A stretch of DNA of 64,000 bases from Candidatus Zixiibacteriota bacterium (GTDB lineage Bacteria; Zixibacteria; MSB-5A5; WJJR01): assembly GCA_036397555.1 (NCBI GenBank), contig DASWIS010000008.1, positions 796,501-860,500 of the forward strand. Direction: 5' to 3'. Made by a program: the position numbers and the translations under genes. Below the pieces are notes generated by a model, which saw only the letters and a program-made list of their open reading frames with translations, did not search any database and was not told the origin of the DNA. Below are positions 1,901 through 27,965 of the stretch, piece after piece. The stretch's first letter is position 1, and the number at the start of each line of letters is the position of its first letter.

Positions 1901-3526
1901 ATGACAGAGACACTGACTCAGAGCAAGCGGATGGATCGCGGAAGCGCTGAACATCTGCCCAACGGTGCGATACGCGTTCGCCGCGCGCTGCTGTCGGCCT
2001 ACGACAAATCCGGACTGCTGCCCCTGGCGCAAACGCTCCGGCAGTTGGGAGTCGAGATCGTATCCACCGGCGGGACATTATCGATGTTGCGCGATGGCGG
2101 AGTACCGGCGCGCGCGGTCGAAGAGGTCACCGGTTACGGCGCCATGCTGGGCGGACGCCTCAAGACGCTGCACCCGAAGCTGCTCGGCGGGATTCTGGCG
2201 CGTCGCGACAACACTTCGGACACTCACGATCTTTCAGAAGCGCAGATCGATCCCATCGACCTGGTTGTCGTGAATTTATATCCATTCGAAACGGCGGCCG
2301 ACGATCCCTCCGCCACACGGGATGATGCCATTGAGCTGATCGATGTCGGCGGGCCGACCATGATCCGTGCCGCCGCCAAAAATCATGCGTGGGTCGCGGT
2401 CGTCTGCGACCCGGCGGACTACGAATCGTTGTCGCGGGAGTTGCAGGCAACCGACGGTTGTGTCAGCGAGGATTCTCGGGCACGTCTGGCGTCGAAGGCG
2501 TTCTCCATCACGGCCGCCTACGACACGCGCATTGCGGATTACTTTGCCCGAAATGTCGGTCAGGACGCATCGCCGGGTTTCCCGTCGATCTGGCTGCAGC
2601 GCTACGATTACGTAGCCGGGCTCCGATACGGCGAAAACCCGCATCAGCGCGCCGCGGTCTATGCCGCGGCCGATTCAACGCAATCGTCCCTGGCGCGGGC
2701 GCGCGTCATCGGCGGCAGGGAGATTTCCTACAACAACTACAACGATCTCGACGCCGCCTGGCGCATGGCCGCCGACTTTTCGGAGCCGTTTGCCGCCGTC
2801 TTCAAACACGCGACTCCCTGTGGTGCGGCCGAAGGCAATTCGATCGCGGCGGCCTACCGATCCGCCCATGAGACCGACCCGTTGTCGGCGTACGGCTCGA
2901 TCATCGCCTTAAACCGCCGTGTCGATTATGCGTGCGCCGAATTGCTCCACGCGACGGAGTTTATCGAGTGTGTCCTAGCCCCGGGCTATGATGAGGATGC
3001 GCTCGAACTGCTGATCCGGAAAAAGGCGCGCCGTTTCGTCGACGTACCGACCATCGACATCGAATCCTCCGCAATGCGCGTGCGTGAGATCATCGGCGGA
3101 CTCCTGGTGCAGGAGGACGACAGAACGAACCTGACCCCGGCGGATCTGCGCGTTGTCACGCGCCGTTCGCCGACCGCGGAGCAAATCACGTCGCTGCTGT
3201 TTGCCCGCAAGGTCGTCAAGCACGCGCGCTCGAATGCCATCGCGATCGCATCGGGTTGTGTGGCGGTCGGCATCGGCGCGGGGCAGACATCACGGGTCGA
3301 TGCCGTGCACCAGGCGGTGGCCAAGGCGAACAATCGCACCCAGGGTGCTGTGCTGGCATCCGATGCATTCTTTCCCATGGCCGATGGCGTCGAAGCGGCG
3401 GCGGCCGCGGGGATTGCGGCCATCATCCAGCCGGGCGGCTCCCGGCGCGACGCCGAAGTCATTGCCGCCTGTGACAACGCGAATATCGCCATGGTGTTCA
3501 GCGGGCTGCGGAACTTCCGGCATTAA
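1901..3526 (+). CDS. purH: Bifunctional AICAR formyltransferase / IMP cyclohydrolase
   Basis: Catalyses the last two steps to IMP. The 541 residues divide into an N-terminal MGS-like cyclohydrolase (about 22-180, with ALLSAYDKSGL, STGGT and the GGRLKTLHPK segment) and a C-terminal AICAR transformylase (about 225-541). The latter holds LRYGENPHQ, the SYNNYNDLDAA motif, the KHATPCG catalytic region and FFPMADGVEAA near the end. The start at 1901 gives a short variable tail; an ATG at 1931 is equally possible and leaves the domains untouched. Full length and intact; third gene of the purN-purC-purH set. Confidence 0.97.
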   Translation: MTETLTQSKRMDRGSAEHLPNGAIRVRRALLSAYDKSGLLPLAQTLRQLGVEIVSTGGTLSMLRDGGVPARAVEEVTGYGAMLGGRLKTLHPKLLGGILARRDNTSDTHDLSEAQIDPIDLVVVNLYPFETAADDPSATRDDAIELIDVGGPTMIRAAAKNHAWVAVVCDPADYESLSRELQATDGCVSEDSRARLASKAFSITAAYDTRIADYFARNVGQDASPGFPSIWLQRYDYVAGLRYGENPHQRAAVYAAADSTQSSLARARVIGGREISYNNYNDLDAAWRMAADFSEPFAAVFKHATPCGAAEGNSIAAAYRSAHETDPLSAYGSIIALNRRVDYACAELLHATEFIECVLAPGYDEDALELLIRKKARRFVDVPTIDIESSAMRVREIIGGLLVQEDDRTNLTPADLRVVTRRSPTAEQITSLLFARKVVKHARSNAIAIASGCVAVGIGAGQTSRVDAVHQAVAKANNRTQGAVLASDAFFPMADGVEAAAAAGIAAIIQPGGSRRDAEVIAACDNANIAMVFSGLRNFRH

Positions 3527-3543
3527 TCAGTGTTGCGAACGTG

Positions 3544-4812
3544 ATGACAGACCATATCAATGATGCACCGCCCTGGGAGTCGCTGGGGGGCAAGCAGATC
3601 CTGCTGGGCATCGGCGGCGGCATCGCCGCCTACAAGTCCGCGTACCTCTGCCGACGGCTGATCGAAGCCGGCGCCCAGGTGCAGGTGGTCATGACCGAGG
3701 CGGGATCGAAGTTCATCACCCCGCTGACGATGGAGAGTCTCTCCGGGCGCGAGGTCATCACCGAGATGTTTCCGACGGGACAATTCGTCGGCACACGCCA
3801 CATCGACATCAGCGCCTGGGCCGAGTTGGTCATTGTCGCGCCCGCCACAGCGAATCTGATCGGGCGTTACGCCGCCGGTTTGGCCAATGACATGCTCACG
3901 ACGCTGCTGATCGCCACGCGCGCGCCCGTGCTCCTCGCGCCGGCAATGAATACCGACATGTATCTGCATCCGGCCGTGCAGGACAATCTGGAAACTTTGC
4001 GGCGCCGCGCCGTTTTGTTCGTCGAGCCCGGAGTCGGTGAGATGGCCTGCGGCACCGTGGGTGTGGGACGCATGGCCGAGCCCGAAGAGATCGTGGCCGC
4101 CGCCGCCGCCGTCCTCGCCGCGCGCGACAAGCGCGACCTGGTCGGGCACCATGTCATCGCCACCGCCGGACCGACGCAGGAACCGATCGATCCGGTGCGC
4201 GTCCTGACCAACCGGTCATCGGGCAAGATGGGATACGCGATCGCCGAGGCGGCCCGGATGCGCGGCGCGACCGTCGATCTGATCAGCGGTCCCACAGCGC
4301 TGCCCCATCCGTCAGGTGTCGAGTTGTTGAGGGTCAACACGTCCGAGGAAATGTACGACGCGGTGGTCGAGCGCGCCCCGCGCGCCACGATCATCATCGG
4401 TGTGGCGGCGGTCTCCGACTGGCGCGTCGATGAGGTGGCCGATTCGAAACTGCGCAAGGAGGACGGCACACCGTCGTTGCGTCTGGTCCCGACACGCGAC
4501 ATCATGGCATCGCTGGGCGCATCGAAACGACATGACCAAATACTCGTCGGTTTCGGACTGGAAACAGACCCGCGACGTCTGGAATCGATTGACAAGCTGA
4601 GGCAGAAGGGTCTGGATTTGCTGATCGCCAATAACCCGACACGGCCCGGCTCGGAGTTCGGCGGCGACACGAATGAAGCGGTCCTCATTGACGCAACCGG
4701 CACGATCACCCGGCCGGGACTGCTGTCGAAGCGCGCGCTCGCCGATGTTGTTCTCGACCGAATCGCGGAAATGATCGAACACAAACGCACCGGGGCACGC
4801 ACCCGAACGTAG
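3544..4812 (+). CDS. coaBC: Bifunctional phosphopantothenoylcysteine decarboxylase / phosphopantothenate-cysteine ligase
   Basis: Carries out the cysteine addition and decarboxylation steps of coenzyme A synthesis. The N-terminal CoaC flavoprotein half (about 15-195) has GIGGGIAAYK, the active-site His in TRHIDIS, the PAMNTDMY motif (family PxMNxxMW) and the catalytic Cys in EMACGTVGVGRM. The C-terminal CoaB half (about 200-415) opens with ATAGPTQEPID and the NRSSGKMG segment, and has IANNP near the end. A GTG at 3541 directly precedes the ATG at 3544; I chose the ATG. It follows purH by 17 bases, in the same operon-like run. Confidence 0.96.
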   Translation: MTDHINDAPPWESLGGKQILLGIGGGIAAYKSAYLCRRLIEAGAQVQVVMTEAGSKFITPLTMESLSGREVITEMFPTGQFVGTRHIDISAWAELVIVAPATANLIGRYAAGLANDMLTTLLIATRAPVLLAPAMNTDMYLHPAVQDNLETLRRRAVLFVEPGVGEMACGTVGVGRMAEPEEIVAAAAAVLAARDKRDLVGHHVIATAGPTQEPIDPVRVLTNRSSGKMGYAIAEAARMRGATVDLISGPTALPHPSGVELLRVNTSEEMYDAVVERAPRATIIIGVAAVSDWRVDEVADSKLRKEDGTPSLRLVPTRDIMASLGASKRHDQILVGFGLETDPRRLESIDKLRQKGLDLLIANNPTRPGSEFGGDTNEAVLIDATGTITRPGLLSKRALADVVLDRIAEMIEHKRTGARTRT

Positions 4813-4824
4813 ACGAAAGTCCCC

Positions 4825-5496
4825 ATGGATGAGTCACTGGCAACGATGGGCCGGGCACTGCGGCAACTGCTGGACACCGAACCCTCGTTGCAGCTATTCG
4901 ACGACCCCCGCGCGCAGCGGCGCGCGCGGTCGCTTGTGGAACTCTACGAACAGATTCACACGTGCACGAAGTGCCCGCTGGGACACTCGCGAAACAAGTT
5001 CGTCTTCGGCGTCGGCAATCCCAACGCCGAAATCCTGTTCATCGGCGAAGCCCCGGGACGGGATGAAGATTTGCAGGGAGAGCCGTTTGTGGGGCGCGCG
5101 GGCCAGCTACTCGACAAAATGCTGGCGGCAATCCACCTCCAACGCGAAGAAGTTTACATTGCCAACATCCTGAAATGCCGCCCGCCGGACAATCGCGACC
5201 CCCTCCCCGAAGAATCCGCCGCCTGTCTGCCGCACCTGGCGGAGCAGATTCGGCTGCTGGCGCCGCGCCTGATCTGTTCGCTGGGGCGCGTGGCGGCGCA
5301 GATTCTCATGGAGACGAAGGCGCCATTGTCCAAGCTGCGCGGCCGGTTTTATGAGTTCGGTTCCGCGCGCATGTTGGTGACATTTCATCCGGCGGCGCTC
5401 CTGCGTAATCCCAACTTCAAACGCGATGCCTGGGAGGACCTGAAGGTCTTGCGCAGAGCATACGATGATCTGAAAGGGCAGCCGTCGAACTTTTGA
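4825..5496 (+). CDS. Family 4 uracil-DNA glycosylase (Fe-S)
   Basis: Removes uracil arising from cytosine deamination. The 223-residue protein has the four-cysteine cluster pattern of family 4: Cys47 and Cys50 (CTKC), Cys118 (LKCRPP) and Cys134 fifteen residues later, which would bind a [4Fe-4S] cluster. Active-site motif A is GEAPGRDED (residues 74-82), and motif B is HPAALLRNP near the C-terminus. A non-catalytic N-terminal extension of about 40 residues precedes the first cysteines, as in many family members fused to phage-polymerase-like tails. It lies 12 bases after coaBC with no obvious functional link. Confidence 0.94.
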
Positions 5497-5524
5497 TCGC
5501 CAGGTCTTCAAGGAGATCAATCCT

Positions 5525-6604
5525 ATGGTTCACGCCGTAATCCTTGCCGGTGGCGCTGGAGAGCGATTCTGGCCGCTGTCGCGCCGCTCGCGCCCCAAGC
5601 AGCTATTGCCCTTATTGGGCGACCGTTCGATGATCGAGATGACCATCGATCGCATCAGTCCCGACATTCCCGCCGATCGCACCTGGGTGGTTACCGGACA
5701 GGAGATCGGGGCTGCCGTGTGCGAACGGCTCACGCAGATTCCCAAACAGAATATTCTCGAGGAGCCGCGCGGCAACAACACCTGTCTGGCGATTGCCTGG
5801 GCTGCCGCCGAGCTGCGACGCCGCGATCCCGATGCCACGCTCGTCGTCCTCTCGGCCGACCACGCAATCTCCCCGGTGGAGACATTGCGCCGTGTTCTCA
5901 GGGAAGGCGTCCGCCTGGCGGAATCCGACGATCATCTGATCACCGTTGGGATCACGCCCACGCGCCCGGAGACAGCCTACGGCTACATCGAATTGGGGCC
6001 GATCTTCGCCAAAACCGATGGGATCACGTCGTATCAGGTCGAGCGCTTCGCCGAAAAGCCCGACCGTCCCACCGCGCAGGATTACTATTACGACCGTCGG
6101 CATCTGTGGAATTCCGGTATGTTTGTCTGGACGGCGCGCGCGCTGCTGGACGCCCTGTCGAAACATGCTCCCGGCGTCAATACGCCGCTGATGGACTACA
6201 TCAGGAAATCCGGCACCGGCCCGAACAACGGCGCACTGCAGGAGCTCTACGACACGGCCGAGTGCATCTCGATTGACATTGCCGTGCTCGAACGGGCCGA
6301 CAATGTCGTGGTCATCCAGGCCGATCTGGCATGGGATGATGTCGGCAGTTGGCTGGCCCTGCAGCGGCTGTCGCACAAGGACTCGCACAGCAACGTCGTG
6401 CGGGGCAACGCGGTCTCCCTGGAGACATTCGACACGACAATCTACAACGATTCCGATGACTTGGTTTGCGCCTTCGGTGTCTCCGATTTGGTGGTTGTCC
6501 GCACCGGACGGTCCGTGATGGTGGCGCACAAGTCCCGGATCGATGAGATGAAGCAACTGATGGAGGAAATCAAGTCCGACCCCTCGTGGGAGGAGTACCT
6601 CTGA
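5525..6604 (+). CDS. manC: Mannose-1-phosphate guanylyltransferase
   Basis: Makes GDP-mannose from mannose-1-P and GTP for surface polysaccharide. The 359 residues correspond to the nucleotidyltransferase domain alone; the C-terminal isomerase half of bifunctional versions is absent. Signatures are LAGGAGERFWPLSRRSRPKQ at the N-terminus, the LSADHAI segment, and FAEKPDRPTA around residue 176. NSGMFVW and DVGSW follow. A GGAGATC stretch lies 8-14 bases before the ATG. The stop overlaps the next start (TGATG at 6602-6606). Confidence 0.92.
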   Translation: MVHAVILAGGAGERFWPLSRRSRPKQLLPLLGDRSMIEMTIDRISPDIPADRTWVVTGQEIGAAVCERLTQIPKQNILEEPRGNNTCLAIAWAAAELRRRDPDATLVVLSADHAISPVETLRRVLREGVRLAESDDHLITVGITPTRPETAYGYIELGPIFAKTDGITSYQVERFAEKPDRPTAQDYYYDRRHLWNSGMFVWTARALLDALSKHAPGVNTPLMDYIRKSGTGPNNGALQELYDTAECISIDIAVLERADNVVVIQADLAWDDVGSWLALQRLSHKDSHSNVVRGNAVSLETFDTTIYNDSDDLVCAFGVSDLVVVRTGRSVMVAHKSRIDEMKQLMEEIKSDPSWEEYL

Positions 6605-7074
6605 TGAGACCCGTGACCGCGCCGGGGATTTTGGCTGTTCTGCTTGTGGTCAGTTCCTCGCCGGTTACGGCCGATCGCAAGGGTCCCGACCCTCTCGGCT
6701 TCCCCGGCGATGATGCCGTCATCACGGAGAATGTCACCGCTCACATGCCCGACACGGGTGCGGTCACAGCGCACGAATACCAACAGCCGGCTCCATCCAC
6801 TGCGTCCACTGCGTCCTCACTCAGTCTCCAGGTCCAGTTCTACGCGTCGCCGGACATCGCCAAGGCGCGGGATGTCAAGTCGCGCGCCGAGGCGAACCTG
6901 CCCGATTCGATCACGCTGATCTATGAAACGCCGTACTACAAGCTGCGCACGGGCGACTTCCGCGATTACGACCAGGCCGAACACATCGCGGTCCGTCTGC
7001 GTGCCATGGGATATGAGACCGCCTGGGTCGTGCGCGTCGATCGCGCGCGCAACCCGCGCGCGACGGGTGAATGA
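6604..7074 (+). CDS. Secreted SPOR-domain protein
   Basis: The 156-residue protein starts with a signal peptide (MRPVTAPGILAVLLVVSSSP, likely cut after PVTA). A disordered Pro/Thr/Ser stretch follows, and then a C-terminal SPOR domain (about 78-152) with alternating strands: SLQVQFYAS, YYKLRTGDF, and MGYETAWVVR. SPOR domains bind glycan strands stripped of stem peptides at division sites, so a periplasmic cell-wall role is likely; no catalytic domain is present. The ATG at 6604 overlaps the manC stop, and the stop overlaps the next start (ATGA), so translation is probably coupled. Confidence 0.8.
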   Translation: MRPVTAPGILAVLLVVSSSPVTADRKGPDPLGFPGDDAVITENVTAHMPDTGAVTAHEYQQPAPSTASTASSLSLQVQFYASPDIAKARDVKSRAEANLPDSITLIYETPYYKLRTGDFRDYDQAEHIAVRLRAMGYETAWVVRVDRARNPRATGE

Positions 7075-19157: not shown

Positions 19158-20546
19158 CTACACGTCATCGCCGCGTCGGCCGGAACGCGGATCGTCGAAC
19201 TTGTACTTGCTGATCTTGCGGTACAGCGTCGAGTTATCGATGCCGAGGATCTGCGCCGCCTTCGATTTCTGCCAGTCTGTTTGATTCAGAATCCAATAGA
19301 TGTAGGCCTTCTCGATTGACTCCAATGTCGGCACCGCTCCATCGGACGGTCCGTCCGTCGCTTCGGCCGATGTCGCCTGTCCCAGCTTGTCGGGAAAGTC
19401 GCTGATATCGAGCTCGTCTTTGCGCGTCAGGACAACCGCCCGCTCGATCACGTTTTGCAGCTCGCGCACGTTGCCCGGCCACGAGTAACTGTGCAGGCGT
19501 GCCGCCGCCGCAGGAGTCAATGTCTTGAGTGCGCATCCCGCGCGCTCGCAGCTTTGACGGACAAAATAATCGCTGAGCAGTTCAATATCGTCGCGGCGCT
19601 CTCGCAGCGGCGGCAAATAGATTTGGATGACATTCAGACGGTAGTACAAATCGGGACGGAATCGCTTGGCCCCGACAGCGCCTTCCAAATCAGCGTTCGT
19701 GGCGGCGATCAGGCGCACGTCAACCGGCTCGGCACTCGTCGAACCGATCGACGTGACCTGCTTGTCCTCCAACACGCGCAGCAGCTTGACCTGGATCGCG
19801 CCGGGAGTCTCGGCAATCTCGTCGAGAAACAGTGTGCCGCCGTTGGCGGCGCGAAAGAGCCCTTCATGATCCCGGATCGCTCCGGTAAACGATCCCTTCA
19901 CATGCCCGAAGAGCTCGCTTTCCAGCAATGTCTCCGGCAGAGCGCCGCAGTTGACGGCCAGAAACGGTTGATCACGTCGCGACGAGTACTGGTGGATGGC
20001 GCGCGCCAGCAGATCCTTTCCGGTGCCGCTCTCGCCACGGATCAGGATCGTCGCATCCGAACGTGCCGCCTGCGCCGCCGTGCGCTTGAGCTGATCGATG
20101 CGCGCGTCGGCGCCGAGAATCCGGTCGAATGCGCCGGCGACCCCGAGCTTCTCCTTCAGGACGCGGTTTTCCTTCTTGAGCGCCTTGGTCTCCAGCGCCT
20201 TGGCGACCGCGTGTTTGAGCTCGTCGACCTTGAACGGCTTGATGATATACTCATCCGCGCCCTTCTTGATCGCCTCGATCGCCGTGTCCACCGACGCGAA
20301 CGCCGTCATGACGATGAAGGGCACCTCATTATTGAGGCGGCGTGCTTCATCGAGGATTTCGATCCCCGACATTCCCGGCATCTTCAAATCCGCGATCACC
20401 AGATCGTAGCCGGTGCTTTTGAGGCGCGTCAGCGCGCGGTCCCCATCGGGCTCAGCGTCGACGGCATACCCTTCCCGCGTGAGCATGATGCTCATCATCT
20501 CCCGCAGCGACTGCTCGTCGTCGACAACCAGAATCCGATGCTGCAT
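19158..20546 (-). CDS. NtrC-family sigma-54 response regulator
   Basis: The 462-residue regulator has three parts. The receiver domain (1-120) has Asp53 as phospho-acceptor in [12 protein letters not shown] and the switch Lys in YIIKPFK. The AAA+ domain (about 140-375) has Walker A GESGTGKD, the sigma-54 contact motif in the form GSFTGA, Walker B TLFLDEI and [11 protein letters not shown] Fis-type helix-turn-helix ends it ([17 protein letters not shown]). It should activate sigma-54 promoters. No histidine kinase is adjacent. An open frame extends much further upstream on this strand, but it runs antisense through the divergent regulator; homology begins at [10 protein letters not shown], so I start there. 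Confidence 0.93.
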
Positions 20547-20637
20547 AGCGCGTTGTCCGGACTGCCCCATCAAGGGGAGTATCGGCCGACGGCGGCGATC
20601 CGTTGACCGACTCGGTGCCGCGTCTAAATGTCGGGAA

Positions 20638-20651
20638 CGGGTTTCAACCCG
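20638..20651. promoter_or_regulatory. Inverted repeat between the divergent regulators
   Basis: CGGGTT-TC-AACCCG is a perfect 6-base inverted repeat with a 2-base centre, lying in the 189-base gap between the two divergent NtrC-type genes. A dyad here could be an operator for either regulator. No convincing -24/-12 (GG-N10-GC) promoter was identified beside it. If the rightward regulator used an ATG at 20628, this dyad would be coding, which I think less likely. Confidence 0.35.
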
Positions 20652-20735
20652 CGGACGGTTTCGCCGATAACTACTGTGTCGGGCTCCGGGCGGTCGTCGA
20701 CCGGCTGTCTCGTATCCCGTCACCGCAGGGACACT

Positions 20736-22166
20736 GTGACAACACGCCGAATCACCGTCTTGCTGGTCGATGACGACCCCGAGATCGCTCAGGCGGTCGC
20801 CAACTTCCTGTCGCCGGAACGCTTCCGTGTCGAAGTGGTCGGCGACGGTGCGCTGGTGCTGTCCACGGTCCGCCATGTGCAGCCCGATGTGATCTTGTTG
20901 GATGTCCACCTGCCGTCGATCAGCGGGCTGGACCTGCTCAAAGAGATCAAAGCGACCGCGGCATCGATTCCGGTGATCATCGTCTCCGGGCACGTCTCCA
21001 CCGACAACGCGATTGAAGCGATGAAACAAGGTGCATTCGAGTACGTCACCAAGCCGTTCCGTTTGGCGACATTGGAGCAAACGATCATCCGCGCCTGCGG
21101 ACGCGCCGCCGGTCCCTTCCCGCGCGACGACGAAGACGTTGTGCCCGCCGACGGCCAGATCATCGGCAAGTCGCCGGAAATCGTCGCGGTTGCGAAGATG
21201 ATCGGACAGGTCGCCGATGCCGACGCACCGGTGCTGCTCATGGGCGAATCGGGAACGGGCAAGGAATTGGTCGCCCGGGCCATCCATCGGAATTCGCGCC
21301 GCGCCGGAGCGACCTTTTGCTCCGTCAGTTGCGCTGCCTCCAACGAAGACTTCCTCGAAGCGGAACTCTTTGGCGGGATCGGCGGCTCGGAACGCGGACG
21401 GCCGGGACGGGCGGGAAAACTCGAGGAGGCAACCGGCGGAACCGTCTTTCTCGACGAAATCGCCGACTTGTCGCTGCTGGTGCAGAGCCGTCTGTTCCGC
21501 GTCCTCGATGACAACCTCATCGAGCACCCCGGTACACACGAAACCATCCACACCAATGTCCGGATCATCGCCGCGACGTCGCAGAGTCTGGTCGACCTGA
21601 TGAAAGAGGGGCGCTTCCGCGTCGACCTCTTTTATAAGCTGAAAGTTGTCTCGCTGTTTTTGCCGCCGCTGCGCGAGCGCAAAGCCGACATCCGTTTACT
21701 GAGCGACTATTTCATCCGCAAGTACTCGCGCCTGGCGCATCGTCCGCCCAAGCCGCTCGCGTCCAGGGCGTACGATCAACTGCTGCGGTACCATTGGCCC
21801 GGCAATGTCCGGGAACTGGAAAACGCCATTCATACCGCCGTCGTGCTCGCGCGCGAGGCCGAACTCATTCCCGAAGACTTCCCGATGCTCGCGGACGTGC
21901 GGCAGGCGGTGCCGCCCGATTTGGACAAGATGCACGGCGACTATTGCGACTTGTTCCGCCGCACCCTCCGACCCGCATTCGAGCAGATGGTCGGAAATTC
22001 CGAAGGGCGGATTTACACGGAACTGACCGCCGCGCTCGACGAGGCATTGGTCGAAGCGGCCCTGGAGGCGACACAAAACAACCAGGTCCGGGCCGCGCAG
22101 TTGTTGGGAATCTCACGCAACACGCTGCGCGAACGGATGCGCCGCTTTTCGATGGTCGCCAGTTGA
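20736..22166 (+). CDS. NtrC-like response regulator lacking the GAFTGA motif
   Basis: A 476-residue protein with the NtrC layout. The receiver domain has Asp56 in LLDVHLP and Lys in YVTKPFR. The AAA+ domain has Walker A GESGTGKE near residue 170, Walker B TVFLDEI at 236-242, and [10 protein letters not shown]. The Fis-like HTH at the C-terminus is RAAQLLGISRNTLRERM. The loop that should read GAFTGA is replaced by GGIGGSERGRPGRAGKLE (213-230), so productive contact with sigma-54 is unlikely. It may act as a sigma-70 regulator like NtrC of Rhodobacter or TyrR, or may repress. I chose GTG 20736, just before the receiver domain; ATG 20628 would add 36 atypical residues. Confidence 0.85.
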   Translation: MTTRRITVLLVDDDPEIAQAVANFLSPERFRVEVVGDGALVLSTVRHVQPDVILLDVHLPSISGLDLLKEIKATAASIPVIIVSGHVSTDNAIEAMKQGAFEYVTKPFRLATLEQTIIRACGRAAGPFPRDDEDVVPADGQIIGKSPEIVAVAKMIGQVADADAPVLLMGESGTGKELVARAIHRNSRRAGATFCSVSCAASNEDFLEAELFGGIGGSERGRPGRAGKLEEATGGTVFLDEIADLSLLVQSRLFRVLDDNLIEHPGTHETIHTNVRIIAATSQSLVDLMKEGRFRVDLFYKLKVVSLFLPPLRERKADIRLLSDYFIRKYSRLAHRPPKPLASRAYDQLLRYHWPGNVRELENAIHTAVVLAREAELIPEDFPMLADVRQAVPPDLDKMHGDYCDLFRRTLRPAFEQMVGNSEGRIYTELTAALDEALVEAALEATQNNQVRAAQLLGISRNTLRERMRRFSMVAS

Positions 22167-22440: not shown

Positions 22441-23499
22441 ATGCAGATACCATTTTTTAAGAAACGTTCCCGCTCCGTGGCCGCGCTCGACATCGGCGCC
22501 AGTTCGTTGAAGTACGTGCGGCTCGACCGCCAGTCGGAAGGGTATGCCCTGTCGGCCGCAGGGATTCGGGAGTTGCCGACCGAAGCGATCGTCTCTCACG
22601 AGATCAAGGACCGCGACGCCATCATCTTCAACATTCAGAGTCTGATCGACCAGTGCGATCCCGGCACGACGGATGTTGTGGTCAGCGTCTCCGGCCACGG
22701 CGTCATCACCGACAAGTTTGAAGTTGAGCACAAATCGGGCGTCGAAGCCGAACAGGCGATTCTCTTCGAGGCCGAGCAGCGCAGCCCGTTCGACGTCGAT
22801 GATGTCTCCATGGATTACCACGTTTTGCGCGAGGACGCCGACCGCGGCAAGATGGAGGTGCTGCTGGTGGCGGCGCGCCGTGAGTTTTTGCAGGAGTACT
22901 TGAACCTCATCGAAGACGCCGGCTTAAAGACATCGCTCGTCGATACCGATGCCTTCGCGGTGCTCAACGCTTACGACATCAACTACGACATCGACCCCGA
23001 ACGCGTCACGGCGTTGATCAACATCGGGTTCGACACGACGAACGTCATCTTTCTAAAGGACGGGCGCTACCACTCGACACGCGACGTATCGGCGGGTGGA
23101 CGCATCCTTTATGAAGTCATTCAGCGCGAATTTCGTCTCAACCAGGAGTTGGCGCTCAAAGTGATCAAGGGCGAAATGACCGAGACCGTCGATCAGGACA
23201 TGCTGCGCGCCACCATTCAGTCGGCGTCCGATGACCTGCTCACCGGGCTGGAAGTCGCGTTCTCCTACTTCCGCACGCTGGCCAAGACCGACGCGGTCGA
23301 CTGGATCGTGTTGTCGGGCGGCGGGTCGATGGTGCCGTTTCTGCCCGAGTGTATCCAATCGAAGATGAACGTGCCGATCGAAATCGCCAATCCGTTGCGC
23401 AACGTCGAGTACGATCCCGAGCTGTTCGGCGGGGTCGATCCGGAACGCGTGGCGCCGCTGTTGGCGGTGGGAATCGGACTGGCGGCACGGGAGGCATAA
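22441..23499 (+). CDS. pilM: Type IV pilus assembly protein PilM
   Basis: A cytoplasmic actin-like ATPase of the pilus alignment subcomplex that recruits the N-terminus of PilN. The 352 residues begin with KKRSRSVAALDIGASSLKYVRL, the ATP phosphate-1 motif (DIGxxxxK). TALINIGFDTTNVIFL at about residue 181 is the phosphate-2 motif, and WIVLSGGGSMVPFL near residue 281 is the adenosine motif. GGGGGAG lies 7 bases before the ATG. It is the first gene of pilM-N-O-P-Q; no pilin, PilB/T ATPase or PilC gene is in the window. Confidence 0.93.
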   Translation: MQIPFFKKRSRSVAALDIGASSLKYVRLDRQSEGYALSAAGIRELPTEAIVSHEIKDRDAIIFNIQSLIDQCDPGTTDVVVSVSGHGVITDKFEVEHKSGVEAEQAILFEAEQRSPFDVDDVSMDYHVLREDADRGKMEVLLVAARREFLQEYLNLIEDAGLKTSLVDTDAFAVLNAYDINYDIDPERVTALINIGFDTTNVIFLKDGRYHSTRDVSAGGRILYEVIQREFRLNQELALKVIKGEMTETVDQDMLRATIQSASDDLLTGLEVAFSYFRTLAKTDAVDWIVLSGGGSMVPFLPECIQSKMNVPIEIANPLRNVEYDPELFGGVDPERVAPLLAVGIGLAAREA

Positions 23500-23503
23500 C
23501 GCG

Positions 23504-24241
23504 ATGACGATGATTCAGATCAACCTGCTTCCCCGTGAGATGCGCCGGACCTCCGGCGGCGTGGGGCTGTCCAAGAGCTCGCTGGTGGGCGTCGCGGCGC
23601 TGGCCGGTGTGATGGCGGTACTGGCGGGATTGACCTTCATGCAATCGGCGCGCCACAACGCCGTTCAGGGCGAAATTGCCCGCGCGCAAATCAAGGTCGA
23701 TGAACTGCGCGACGACATCGCCCTCGTCGATCGCTTGGAAGAGGTCAAAACGAAAATCCTGCGGCGCATGAACGCCATCGAGACGCTGGACAACCACCGG
23801 GGCTATTGGGTGCGCAACGTCGAGGACATTCTGGCGGTCATCCCCAGCTATCTGTGGCTCTCCGGGTTCCACCGCGAAGACCCCCGGAAAGCCGTGAAGG
23901 GCCAGGCCATCGATTCGACCCTGTTGTCGGAGAACCGCTATCTGCTCGACGGCTTCTGTTTTACGATCAGCAGTCTGGCCAATATGATTTTGAACATGCA
24001 GGACTCGCCGCGGTTCGAAAACGTTCAGTTGCGGCGCGCACAGATCAAGGATCTGAAGAAGCGCCACGTCTATGAATTCCAGGTCGCCTGCGAACTGATC
24101 CCGTTGGACGAGGCGACCGGCGGCATCGAAGACGTACCCGCGACATCCGTGACCGTCGGCAGTCGTCCGACCCAACGCGGCGCGGCGATGGCTGCGACAC
24201 CCGATTGGTACGACGCACCGGCCGAGGAGGCACGGCCATAA
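23504..24241 (+). CDS. pilN: Type IV pilus assembly protein PilN
   Basis: An inner-membrane protein of 245 residues. The N-terminus MTMIQINLLPREMRR holds the INLLP motif that docks onto PilM. One membrane helix follows (about 26-47, SLVGVAALAGVMAVLAGLTF), then a periplasmic coiled coil (about 50-90) and a ferredoxin-like globular region. The tail after residue 215 is polar and probably disordered. It is longer than typical PilN (about 180-200), mainly through an insertion around residues 120-150. It begins 4 bases after pilM. Confidence 0.88.
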   Translation: MTMIQINLLPREMRRTSGGVGLSKSSLVGVAALAGVMAVLAGLTFMQSARHNAVQGEIARAQIKVDELRDDIALVDRLEEVKTKILRRMNAIETLDNHRGYWVRNVEDILAVIPSYLWLSGFHREDPRKAVKGQAIDSTLLSENRYLLDGFCFTISSLANMILNMQDSPRFENVQLRRAQIKDLKKRHVYEFQVACELIPLDEATGGIEDVPATSVTVGSRPTQRGAAMAATPDWYDAPAEEARP

Positions 24242-24282
24242 CCATCATCAATCGACTCTGACCTCTTGGACAGGTGGATGCA

Positions 24283-24912
24283 ATGGATCTGAAAAACCCG
24301 CAAGTACAGAAGCTGTTGCTGCTGGTCATGGTCGGGCTGGTCGGTACCTACTTTTGGTACACGAAGGTCTATACCGACTACGAGCAGAAAATCGATGCCG
24401 GCTACATGCGTCTGGAGTCGCTGCAAACGGAGCTCGCCGAAGTCGAAATGAAGTTCCGTTCGCTCGAATCCCTGAAGGCCGAGTACACCGACCTGACGCA
24501 CCGCTACCGCCTCGTGGCGCAGTTGTTGCCCGAGCACAACCAGCTCTCGCCGCTGCTTTCGAAAATCCACGCTGCCGCGCTGGAAACGTCCTCGAAGATC
24601 GCGAAGGTCGTGCCGCTGACCAACGCCTCGGAGGGATTCTACGATCGCGAGAACTATCAATTGACGCTGCATTCGACTTATCACGACCTGGGGGACTTTC
24701 TATCCCGGCTGTCGAACATGCCGTTTATCGTCAATGTCAATCAGTTGGCCCTGAAGTCGGTGGACGAGCGCGAGTCGCCCGAAACGGTGGGCGGCGGATT
24801 CACGCTCACCGCCGAAATGCAGATTGCCACCTACCATGTCAAAGAGTCCGAGCGCCTCGTGCTGTTGGACAATCTGGACTTAACCGAAGGTAGCGGGGAA
24901 GCGGGTCTATGA
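24283..24912 (+). CDS. pilO: Type IV pilus assembly protein PilO
   Basis: A 209-residue bitopic inner-membrane protein that pairs with PilN. A short cytoplasmic start is followed by a membrane helix (about 9-26, KLLLLVMVGLVGTYFWYT). A coiled coil (30-70) and a periplasmic ferredoxin-like domain with YQLTLHSTYHDLGDFLSRLSN follow, as in PilO. I chose ATG 24283 because an AGGTGG ribosome site lies 5 bases before it; a GTG at 24274 in the same frame falls inside that site. The last codons overlap the next start by 4 bases. Confidence 0.88.
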   Translation: MDLKNPQVQKLLLLVMVGLVGTYFWYTKVYTDYEQKIDAGYMRLESLQTELAEVEMKFRSLESLKAEYTDLTHRYRLVAQLLPEHNQLSPLLSKIHAAALETSSKIAKVVPLTNASEGFYDRENYQLTLHSTYHDLGDFLSRLSNMPFIVNVNQLALKSVDERESPETVGGGFTLTAEMQIATYHVKESERLVLLDNLDLTEGSGEAGL

Positions 24913-26639
24913 TGAGTGCTCAGAGATCGTGCCGTTTGATCGCCGCCGCAGGCGCGGCCGCATTCCTTCTGGCGGGATCGCCGGCGCATGCCGCGACCCC
25001 CGTCAAAAGTGTGGCCATGCGACCGGTCGGCGACTTCACCGAACTGTCGATTCCCGTGCCCGGGGCGCTCTTATGCGAGCACTTCACCGTGGAACCGGGC
25101 AACGGCAAGCCCGCCCGCATCGTCCTGGATTTTTGCGATGCGACTCACGCCTTTGGCCAGAACGATTTCTCCAATCTGCCGCCGTGCGTCATCCGCGGCA
25201 TTCGCACCAGCCAGTATCGTGTCGAGCCGCAGCCGATCGTGCGTGTCGTGCTCGATCTGGAGCGCAACGCCACGTACACGGTCCGTCAGGACGCCAATTC
25301 TGTGATCGTGGCGATTGCCGATGCGCAGCGCCCGGCGTTTGCCGAGTGGCAGAGCGGGCGTTCGATCGCGCCGTCGCCGACGTCGTCGGGCAAGCCCGCA
25401 ATGGCGGCTGCCGAACAGAAAGCCCCTGCTTCAGTGCCACAAGTGACGAGCAAGCCGACCGTCGCAGCCAGCGACAAACCCGCGACGCAAACGGCGCCGA
25501 GCAAAACTCAGTCGCCGCCGCCAGCGCCGACTTTTGCGGATGCAAAAAAGAGCGCCGAGCCGAAACCGCAAGCGGCCGCCGCGGCAAAAAGCTCTTCGGA
25601 CGCAAAGCCGGCAGCGGCCGGACAGCCGGAGTCACCCCCGTCGCAACCGGTGCCCGCACAGGTGCCGACCGACATGGCTCAGTCGCCGGGGAAGGGGCCG
25701 CAGTCGAGTGAGAGTCCCGCTGATTTTATGGCGCGCATGACGCCGCCGCAAACGAGTCAGACGTTCGTCCCGCCGTCGGAACCGTTGGTGCTCGCTCCCG
25801 AGCACTTCTCCGGGAAGGACGAGTCCGCCACAAGCACCGATATGCCGATGTCGTCCGCGCCGGTGCAGCCGATGCCCCGCGTGACATCGGGCACAGCGTC
25901 GCGGCAGACTGAGGCGCAGGTATTTGCTTCGACCGGACCGCAGGTTGTTCGCTCCGGAGAAGGCGGCGATGCCGTGGCAGACGATGAGCGTTCGCTGCTG
26001 GAACGTCTCAAGCTCAAGTTCTTCGGCAATCAACGTGCGCCGCGCCCCTACACGACGACGGGTATCGACCCCGCGGCCGTCCCGTTCGACAGCACGGCCG
26101 ACCTGTTTGGTCCGCCGTCGCCGGGGCAGGCGCTCGATCGCGCCGCGTTGCTGGAACGCATTCGCGAGGCCGAACAACAGGCGGCCCAACGGTTCGGACA
26201 AGGCAAGCCCCTGCCACAAGAAGCCAGCGGACGGCACGACGTTTTCTACGATGACATGGGACGCACCGATCCCTTTGAGCAACTTCTCGACGGCCTTCGC
26301 TCGGGGTTCCTGACCAATGCCGTGCCGAACGTCGAGAGTCTGCGGATGGTCGGTGTCCTGCATGATGACTACGATGCCATGGCGCTGCTGGAAGACATGG
26401 AAGGGCACAGCTACATCCTGCGAGAGGGTGATCCGGTCGAGAATGGACACGTCGTGACGGTCCAGGACCAACGCGTGATCTTCCGGATTAACGACTACGG
26501 ATGGCTGCGCAACGTGGCGCTGCAACTCAGCCCGCGCAACGCCGATCCGACCAAGACGCTGGGAATGAATACACAGAACCGACCGGATCGAATTCAGTAT
26601 CAGGAAGAACCCATACCGACAGAAGGCAACGGCGAATAG
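24909..26639 (+). CDS. pilP: AMIN-domain / PilP-like fusion lipoprotein-type pilus protein
   Basis: A 576-residue exported protein in the pilP position. A signal peptide ends near AHAA (29), and there is no lipobox. An AMIN domain follows (about 33-138: FTELSIPV, PARIVLDFCD, IRGIRTSQY, VRVVLDLE). A roughly 300-residue low-complexity linker rich in Pro, Ala, Ser, Lys and Gln comes next. The C-terminal 130 residues look like PilP (GRTDPFEQLL, LRMVGVLHD, YILREGDPV, VVTVQDQRVIF). AMIN domains bind peptidoglycan and normally sit at the N-terminus of PilQ; here the secretin lacks one. The protein probably ties the PilNO platform to the wall and the secretin. Confidence 0.78.
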   Translation: MMSAQRSCRLIAAAGAAAFLLAGSPAHAATPVKSVAMRPVGDFTELSIPVPGALLCEHFTVEPGNGKPARIVLDFCDATHAFGQNDFSNLPPCVIRGIRTSQYRVEPQPIVRVVLDLERNATYTVRQDANSVIVAIADAQRPAFAEWQSGRSIAPSPTSSGKPAMAAAEQKAPASVPQVTSKPTVAASDKPATQTAPSKTQSPPPAPTFADAKKSAEPKPQAAAAAKSSSDAKPAAAGQPESPPSQPVPAQVPTDMAQSPGKGPQSSESPADFMARMTPPQTSQTFVPPSEPLVLAPEHFSGKDESATSTDMPMSSAPVQPMPRVTSGTASRQTEAQVFASTGPQVVRSGEGGDAVADDERSLLERLKLKFFGNQRAPRPYTTTGIDPAAVPFDSTADLFGPPSPGQALDRAALLERIREAEQQAAQRFGQGKPLPQEASGRHDVFYDDMGRTDPFEQLLDGLRSGFLTNAVPNVESLRMVGVLHDDYDAMALLEDMEGHSYILREGDPVENGHVVTVQDQRVIFRINDYGWLRNVALQLSPRNADPTKTLGMNTQNRPDRIQYQEEPIPTEGNGE

Positions 26640-26657
26640 AAACGGGGTGTCCGCGCT

Positions 26658-27965
26658 ATGAAACGGTTACGCAATCGACAAGTACTGGGTCTCTCGCTGC
26701 CGGCGATCGGCCTGACGGTCTGCGCGCTGCTGCTCCTGGCGGCGCCGACTTCGGGCGAAGAGATCATCAAAAACCTCAACTTCCAGAATGCCGACGTCCG
26801 CTCCGTTCTGAACTTCCTGGCGGAGTACGGAGGCGTCAATCTGGTCGCGGCGCCCAACGTTCAGGGCCAGGTCACGCTGAACCTGAAGAATGTCGAATGG
26901 CGCCAGGCACTGGAAATCCTCGCCAAGACCTATGGACTGAAGGTCACCGAGGAGAACGGATTCCTGCGCGTGCTCTTGCTGATCGACTACCTCGAAGAGG
27001 AAGCCGAGCGCGAACGGCACCTCGCCGAACAGCGGCAACTCGTCGACATCGAAACCGAGCTATTCGAGATCAAGCACGCCAACGCCAAGGATCTCATCAG
27101 ACCGGTCAAGTCGCTGTTGTCGGTGCGCGGAAAAGTCGATGTCGAAGAGCGGACCAACACGCTGTTGGTCTCCGATGAACCGGTCAATCTGGCGCGCGCC
27201 GCCCAATTCATCATCGAGCTGGATCGCGAAACACGTCAAGTGCGCATCTCCGCAAAACTGCTGGAGGTATCCAGCAACTACTTCGACGAAGTCGGCGTGT
27301 CCTGGAATCTGCACGGCTCCGGCGCCGACAACGACGGCAACACGTATACCAACGACATCTCGACCGACGGCGCTGAACAGATCACCGATCCCTTCGGAAT
27401 CTACACCTTCGGCACGATGCAGAATGGATGGGATCTGGACGCCACCGTCGCCGCCATCGTCTCCAGCGGCCATGGCAAGGTCGTCGCCCATCCGGAAATC
27501 ACCACCGTCGACAATAAAATGGCGCGCATCCAGGTCGGCCAGAAGGTCCCCATCAAGCAGTTCTCCGCAACCGGTGACGTCGTCATCACGTTCGAAGAGG
27601 TCGGCACCATTCTGCGCGTGACCCCGCACATCACCTCCGACAATCGCATTCTCCTGTCGCTGATGCCCGAGCGCTCCTCGTTCTTCTTTGACCCCAGCGG
27701 CGTGGTGATCAACACCAGCAATGCCGAGACCAACGTTGTCGTCGAAAACGGCCAGACCGCGGTCATCGGCGGACTCACTACCGAGGACGAATTAAAGACC
27801 GTTATCGGCGTGCCCATCCTGAAGGACATTCCGCTGATCGGCAAACTCTTCAGCTACGAAAAGAACGACACTCAGAAACGTGACCTGGTGATCTTCGTGA
27901 CACCGGAAATTGTCGAGCCCGCCCTCATGGGAGCCGTCGACAACACAGGCAGCACCAATCCGTAA
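26658..27965 (+). CDS. pilQ: Type IV pilus secretin PilQ (short form)
   Basis: The outer-membrane channel for the pilus. The 435 residues include a signal peptide (to about SGEE, 33-35) and one N0/STN-type domain (36-95, KNLNFQNADVRSVLNFLAEY). One N1 domain follows (about 130-190, IKHANAKDLI and LLVSDEPVNLARAAQFI). The secretin core (about 195-422) has VVAHPEITTVDN, VPIKQF, VTPHITSDNRI, NGQTAVIGGLT, VPILKDIPLIGKLF and DLVIFVTPEIV. The AMIN domains expected in PilQ are missing; one lies on the preceding protein. A strong terminator follows 20 bases later. Confidence 0.92.
   Translation: MKRLRNRQVLGLSLPAIGLTVCALLLLAAPTSGEEIIKNLNFQNADVRSVLNFLAEYGGVNLVAAPNVQGQVTLNLKNVEWRQALEILAKTYGLKVTEENGFLRVLLLIDYLEEEAERERHLAEQRQLVDIETELFEIKHANAKDLIRPVKSLLSVRGKVDVEERTNTLLVSDEPVNLARAAQFIIELDRETRQVRISAKLLEVSSNYFDEVGVSWNLHGSGADNDGNTYTNDISTDGAEQITDPFGIYTFGTMQNGWDLDATVAAIVSSGHGKVVAHPEITTVDNKMARIQVGQKVPIKQFSATGDVVITFEEVGTILRVTPHITSDNRILLSLMPERSSFFFDPSGVVINTSNAETNVVVENGQTAVIGGLTTEDELKTVIGVPILKDIPLIGKLFSYEKNDTQKRDLVIFVTPEIVEPALMGAVDNTGSTNP

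Follow-up and report, generated by a model that had tools for sequence, protein, structure and literature searches.

The AMIN domains of the PilQ secretin are reported to bind peptidoglycan and to place the pilus machine in P. aeruginosa (PMC5285504), and in M. xanthus the PilQ AMIN is needed for the polar recruitment of PilQ (PMC10653833). The homology region (HR) domain found in PilP and related proteins binds the N0 domain of the secretin (PMC9239104). Here, we describe a pilMNO-pilQ operon from a 2.63 Mb Zixibacteria genome, in which the AMIN domain is carried by the protein in the PilP position and PilQ has none. The operon lies in a window of 64,000 nucleotides, positions 796501-860500 of contig C8. 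We consider it probable, at roughly 0.7, that this is a retractile type IVa pilus with its AMIN wall anchor in the alignment complex instead of in the secretin.

The operon is intact and runs on the + strand in the order pilM, pilN, pilO, the gene for the AMIN-linker-PilP protein, and pilQ. The fourth gene (24909-26639), the start of which is overlapped by the stop of pilO, takes the place of pilP and encodes a protein of 576 residues. Pfam AMIN (PF11741) matched residues 67-135 with E = 3.1e-4; the score, 21.2 bits, exceeds the cut-off of 20.5 by a narrow margin. Among 37 aligned orthologues, 28 gave a match at E<=1. In the AlphaFold model, the predicted local distance difference test (pLDDT) score averaged 81-97 over ten-residue stretches of residues 31-150. 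Residues 28-146 of the model aligned to AmiC (Z = 11.9, root-mean-square deviation (RMSD) 2.6, 105 aligned), and residues 30-140 to M. xanthus PilQ (Z = 11.3, RMSD 2.8, 102 aligned). The AMIN domain was delimited as residues 30-142 (24996-25334, +). When the PDB was searched with a profile of the family, the top match was M. xanthus PilQ, in its N-terminal AMIN region (3.7e-8), followed by M. xanthus PilP (3.1e-5).

At the other end of the protein, residues 468-545 of the model form an HR β-sandwich that matched three PilP structures (2lc4 from P. aeruginosa, Z = 9.7; 2y4y, Z = 9.6; 2ivw from N. meningitidis, Z = 9.0), as well as the HR domain of GspC (3oss, Z = 8.5). This PilP/HR domain (residues 469-545; 26313-26543, +) is preceded by a conserved DPF motif (26268-26276, +), of which D454 and F456 are invariant in the 37 orthologues and P455 is present in at least 90%. 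The two domains, which AlphaFold modelled with confidence, are connected by a linker that it did not. The linker (residues 151-439; 25359-26225, +) comprises 289 residues by alignment columns, 31% of them Pro or Ala. Its ten-residue pLDDT means lie for the most part between 38 and 58, and residues 363-372 and 411-427 form short helices. Its length ranges from 33 to 409 residues among the orthologues (median 246, by alignment columns), so it can be no fixed ruler. Mean pairwise identity per column was 0.37 in AMIN, 0.17 in the linker and 0.45 in HR, and the invariant columns fall in or just after AMIN and in or just before HR, with none in the linker.

The protein starts with a putative signal peptide (24909-24992, +), recognised by eye and with a regular expression as a hydrophobic core and then A-H-A ahead of the AMIN domain. 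The model has a helix at residues 3-21, and the N-terminus reads ...AGSPAHA-ATPV; judged by eye, cleavage by signal peptidase I is likely. A regular expression for a lipobox found none in the protein. With its 576 residues and no lipobox, the protein differs from PilP as a short inner-membrane lipoprotein.

The secretin itself (26658-27965, +) is complete, with 435 residues. Pfam showed a GspD-type N0 (PF21305) at 40-105, STN, Secretin_N at 133-194 and Secretin at 268-420, with no AMIN domain; from PF21305 and PF07660 together, the N0 domain was placed at residues 36-105 (26763-26972, +). A TAG in the same frame at 26637-26639, 18 bases or six codons ahead of the pilQ ATG, leaves no room for an AMIN domain before the secretin. 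The same division was seen among relatives in the phylum. A model built from the family's own AMIN domains found none in 47 Zixibacteria PilQ sequences, and a general model matched one of the 47, with E = 0.74, while AMIN was found in 41 of 45 PilP-position proteins, six of which were cut at the 5' end; most of the proteins in this comparison had also been used to build the models. The Pfam matches listed for the secretin alignment allow AMIN on one of its 36 sequences at most. A preliminary description of this DNA had proposed an AMIN domain in the first 140 residues of the 24909-26639 product, a Pro/Ala linker of about 300 residues, a PilP-like C-terminus and no lipobox, next to a secretin that begins directly with N0 and has no AMIN. 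All of these features were confirmed, the PilP-like C-terminus by its fold, and neither of the two outcomes that it had named as contrary, a lack of AMIN in those residues or an AMIN match in the secretin, was obtained.

The remaining genes identify the machine. PilM, the cytoplasmic actin-like clamp of the alignment complex (22441-23499, +), matched PF11104 (E = 7.4e-53) and TIGR01175 (181.9 bits, cut-off 133), PilN (23504-24241, +) matched PF05137 (32.4 bits, cut-off 22.8), and PilO (24274-24912, +) matched PF04350 (E = 5.7e-22). On the same contig, one cluster contains the genes for PilB (TIGR02538, 701.4 bits, cut-off 675.65), PilT (490.9 bits, cut-off 319.1) and a PilC-like protein that scored 513.7 bits with the PilC model, under the cut-off of 700. 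Adjacent pilM, pilN and pilO genes with a PilQ-class secretin, and PilB, PilT and PilC in the genome, are the gene set by which we recognised a type IVa pilus. HR domains also occur in GspC and GspB, the C-terminus of the AMIN-linker-PilP protein weakly matches GspC_delta (E = 0.015), and the secretin scored 212.7 bits with the model for the DNA-uptake porin HofQ, under its cut-off of 554, so that one might assign the operon to DNA uptake or to a machine resembling type II secretion. We regard such an assignment as quite unlikely, since PilM, PilB and PilT all exceeded their cut-offs, as did the secretin with the TIGR02515 PilQ model (292.1 bits, cut-off 284.35), whereas the GspD model reached only 212 of the 351.35 bits required. 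The NF041515 model for the GspC/GspB family gave 15 bits against a cut-off of 150. The pilus could possibly be a competence pilus. Other ATPases of the filament type are encoded in the same genome (L263, L264, L265 and L267): one of the TadA type, two further members of the PilT family, and a second PilB-like one whose gene is next to that of a GspF/PilC-like protein. Just upstream of pilM, at 19158-22166 of the window, there are two divergent genes for response regulators of the sigma-54 type, assigned by Pfam for the one on the + strand.

The arrangement is a trait of the whole phylum and of other lineages, not a quirk of one genome. A two-domain (AMIN + PilP) profile matched 121 of the 132 genomes of the phylum and 175 of 288 genomes in total, 54 of these outside the phylum. 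In two other phyla, the profile matched 4/4 genomes (the phylum of G267) and 15/17 genomes (the phylum of G282), and in most of these the two parts share an open frame. Of the 132 phylum genomes, 124 gave a secretin match at E<=1e-30, with no listed frame longer than 585 residues; the best named relatives of the secretin are mostly Candidatus Zixiibacteriota metagenome-assembled genomes (MAGs), with identity up to 67%. By hand count, a single match spanned both domains in 73 phylum genomes; in others the domains were matched as separate pieces. Named MAG records from other projects also have this gene order, which, with the recurrence in the phylum, makes the chance of a gene-calling or assembly artefact negligible. 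The preliminary description had called the architecture distinct, and this is supported.

We then surveyed pilP-pilQ loci outside the phylum. PilM was found in 128 of 156 genomes, from which 117 loci were taken, 20 chosen for matching the AMIN-PilP profile and 97 as the genome's best PilM match with sufficient room on the contig. Eleven genomes with PilM were omitted, four for contig ends (G179, G205, G279 and G287) and seven for weak matches (G152, G164, G175, G198, G243, G257 and G272); the weak genomes G153 and G185 were retained. Before counting, 40 loci without a recognised PilP plus a full PilQ were dropped, leaving 77. AMIN was on PilQ only in 44 of these and on PilP only in five; 28 had it on neither protein, and no locus had it on both (Fisher p = 0.012, a value that serves only as a guide, as the genomes are related). 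The 28 include L193, counted as "neither" though it has an AMIN on a fragmented secretin, and omitted from the trees and from the lipobox count. The PilP frame had a median length of 316 residues in the five AMIN-on-PilP loci versus 200.5 in the 44 AMIN-on-PilQ loci, and the PilQ frame 432 versus 762.5.

In four of the five PilP-only loci, the PilP-position protein exceeded the Pfam AMIN cut-off; in none of the five PilQs did Pfam match AMIN. The PF11741 scores of these four (L142-L145, all outside the phylum) were 31.9, 34.5, 29.4 and 39.0 bits, and L142 also passed the PF04351 PilP cut-off, with 30.4. The fifth, L151, is tentative, with no Pfam match and an hhalign probability of 72. As a control, four PilQs called AMIN-bearing by the local model were compared with Pfam, and three (L155, L157 and L160) passed its AMIN cut-off; the fourth, L150, is called where Pfam shows none, and the local model thus reaches further than Pfam. 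A fusion of AMIN and PilP is not claimed for L148 (hhalign 39) or L159 (hhalign 3), and L146 and L154, also considered as fusions, showed no AMIN. The PilP-position proteins of L148 (G230, 3006-4829) and L159 (G219, 4663-6708), of 608 and 682 residues, have bacterial SH3 domains, SH3_3 being strong in L148 and weak in L159. These may be other wall-binding modules on PilP.

Several of the surveyed loci depart from the usual gene arrangement in other ways. PilO and PilP are fused in L224 (G225, frame at 2099, 319 residues) and L158 (G251, frame at 3623, 311 residues), and PilM and PilN in L145 (G256, 551 residues) and L156 (G286, 636 residues). L255 (G236) has a separate 275-residue frame at 2-826 with a weak local AMIN match and no Pfam match, in surroundings with an AMIN-less PilQ, a short PilP and an altered gene order. 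L209 (G169) has two tandem secretin frames of ~1,010 residues each.

The distribution of the lipobox bears on how AMIN came to be on PilP. With a strict regular expression that misses forms such as LPGC, a lipobox was scored in 20/44 AMIN-on-PilQ loci, 3/27 loci with AMIN on neither protein and 0/5 AMIN-on-PilP loci; among the Zixibacteria PilP-position proteins it was scored in 1/38, inside the hydrophobic core. A simple conceivable route is a fusion of the 5' end of pilQ, encoding the signal peptide and AMIN, with the neighbouring pilP, which would account for the missing lipobox. AMIN gain and lipobox loss do not appear to be tightly linked, since PilP is without a lipobox in 24 of the 27 loci with AMIN on neither protein.

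In a tree of the PilQ core (93 rows, AMIN excluded), the 22 AMIN-on-PilP rows require two changes, and 21 of the 22 are set apart from all other rows by a branch whose support, 88, is under the level for a star. Holding all 22 together was not rejected (p-AU = 0.684), and the held tree was likelier than the free one. A single origin of the PilP-borne AMIN is therefore possible, though not proven. The nearest outside rows (L147, L154 and L159) have AMIN on neither protein, and a tree of the AMIN domain (112 columns) had one starred branch of 82 and did not place the donor. Both observations would fit a history without any move, in which PilQ lost, or lacked, AMIN first and PilP gained its own later and separately. 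We give this history slightly less than an even chance. That none of the 77 loci has AMIN on both proteins at once speaks against it, as does the N-terminus of the fusion, a signal peptide followed by AMIN as in PilQ, which is what a copied 5' end of the adjacent pilQ would be expected to give. The preliminary description had held that the wall anchor shifted from the channel to its partner. The position of AMIN on PilP and not on PilQ upholds this in part; the move is one history among several, given the AMIN-less neighbours, the poorly supported AMIN tree and the PilPs that have neither lipobox nor AMIN. We infer the direction of the move, as well as the binding of peptidoglycan, the latter by analogy with published AMIN work.

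The proposed wall-anchored alignment complex might work as follows. The AMIN-linker-PilP protein would be exported and, with no lipid anchor, would stay periplasmic. Its AMIN domain would grip peptidoglycan, as expected from PilQ, where the module is known to bind the septal or polar wall, and the flexible linker would allow the C-terminal HR domain to bind PilQ N0 while the region before HR meets PilN and PilO. The wall would thereby fix, and perhaps place, the machine through PilP instead of PilQ. A more tentative extension, which we think is rather unlikely to be right, is inside-out assembly, in which PilMNO and AMIN-PilP first select septal or polar peptidoglycan and the AMIN-less PilQ is then captured via N0. 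For Myxococcus the opposite order, in which PilQ comes first, has been published; if inside-out assembly is true, the site of AMIN sets the order of assembly.

Several results weigh against a wall anchor on PilP as described. No AMIN match at E<=1 was obtained in nine of the 37 orthologues. The PF04351 PilP score of the window protein was 20.5 bits, under the cut-off of 25.6, and a PilP match at E<=1 was obtained in 23 of the 37 orthologues and not in the other 14. A read-through model of HR and N0, made with a paired alignment of 12 rows, had a predicted template modelling (pTM) score of 0.34, too low to judge the contact, although HR and N0 each matched known folds, including N0 of N. meningitidis PilQ and of other secretins. 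The loci with AMIN on neither protein otherwise have complete operons, so that such a wall anchor is not needed everywhere. AMIN is a β-sandwich, and the fold search with the AMIN region also listed alpha-crystallin-like sandwiches lower down. The domain could have been kept on PilP for structural reasons or to bind a protein, be it PilN/PilO, PilQ or some partner in the envelope, and have ceased to bind the wall, with anchoring supplied from elsewhere. This is improbable, in our view, because the closest sequence match is the AMIN region of PilQ, and because a LysM search of the genome, made without a TsaP model, found only an MltD-like transglycosylase and hence no TsaP-type LysM anchor. A whole-genome AMIN search listed only an AmiC-type amidase, but it missed the AMIN-PilP protein of the window (21.2 bits in hmmscan), and we cannot therefore say that the genome has no other AMIN protein.

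The wall-anchored type IVa pilus proposed here shares with PilMNOPQ of P. aeruginosa and M. xanthus the gene order, PilM, PilN and PilO, an HR domain adjoining an N0 secretin, and one AMIN-bearing component. It differs in that AMIN is on the PilP-position protein, which has a long linker and no lipobox, and PilQ is AMIN-less. PilQ without AMIN is known from 27 of 197 proteobacterial PilQ sequences (PMC7545093) and from Synechocystis, Moraxella catarrhalis and Burkholderia cepacia (PMC10653833). Our PilQ resembles these, but those reports, in the parts available to us, cover the secretin only, whereas here AMIN is found on another component. A machine can carry AMIN even where its secretin lacks it, and surveys must check PilP too. 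The wall anchor of machines like this one has to be sought in a different place. A survey of ten species associated secretin AMIN with polar pili and its absence with pili all over the cell (PMC10653833). The AMIN-on-PilP lineages provide a natural test of two questions, whether the channel itself has to carry the wall anchor and what governs the order in which the machine is assembled. Among the titles and abstract beginnings searched, we found no description of the arrangement; a survey of AMIN domains published by de Souza and colleagues in 2008 may have noted it. The closest working analogue is OutB, the GspB of type II secretion, an HR-domain protein reported to link the N0 domain of the secretin with the wall (PMC9239104). 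The PilP-position protein would do the same in a pilus, with one end at the wall and the other at the channel. OutB belongs to another machine and has a transmembrane anchor, and the available part of that paper names no AMIN for it. TsaP (PMC9239104) likewise binds the wall as a protein of its own that partners the secretin, but it is LysM-like, not AMIN, and is not fused to PilP. The AMIN-on-PilP machine is thus a variant of the known type IVa pilus machine, and apparently one that has not been described before.

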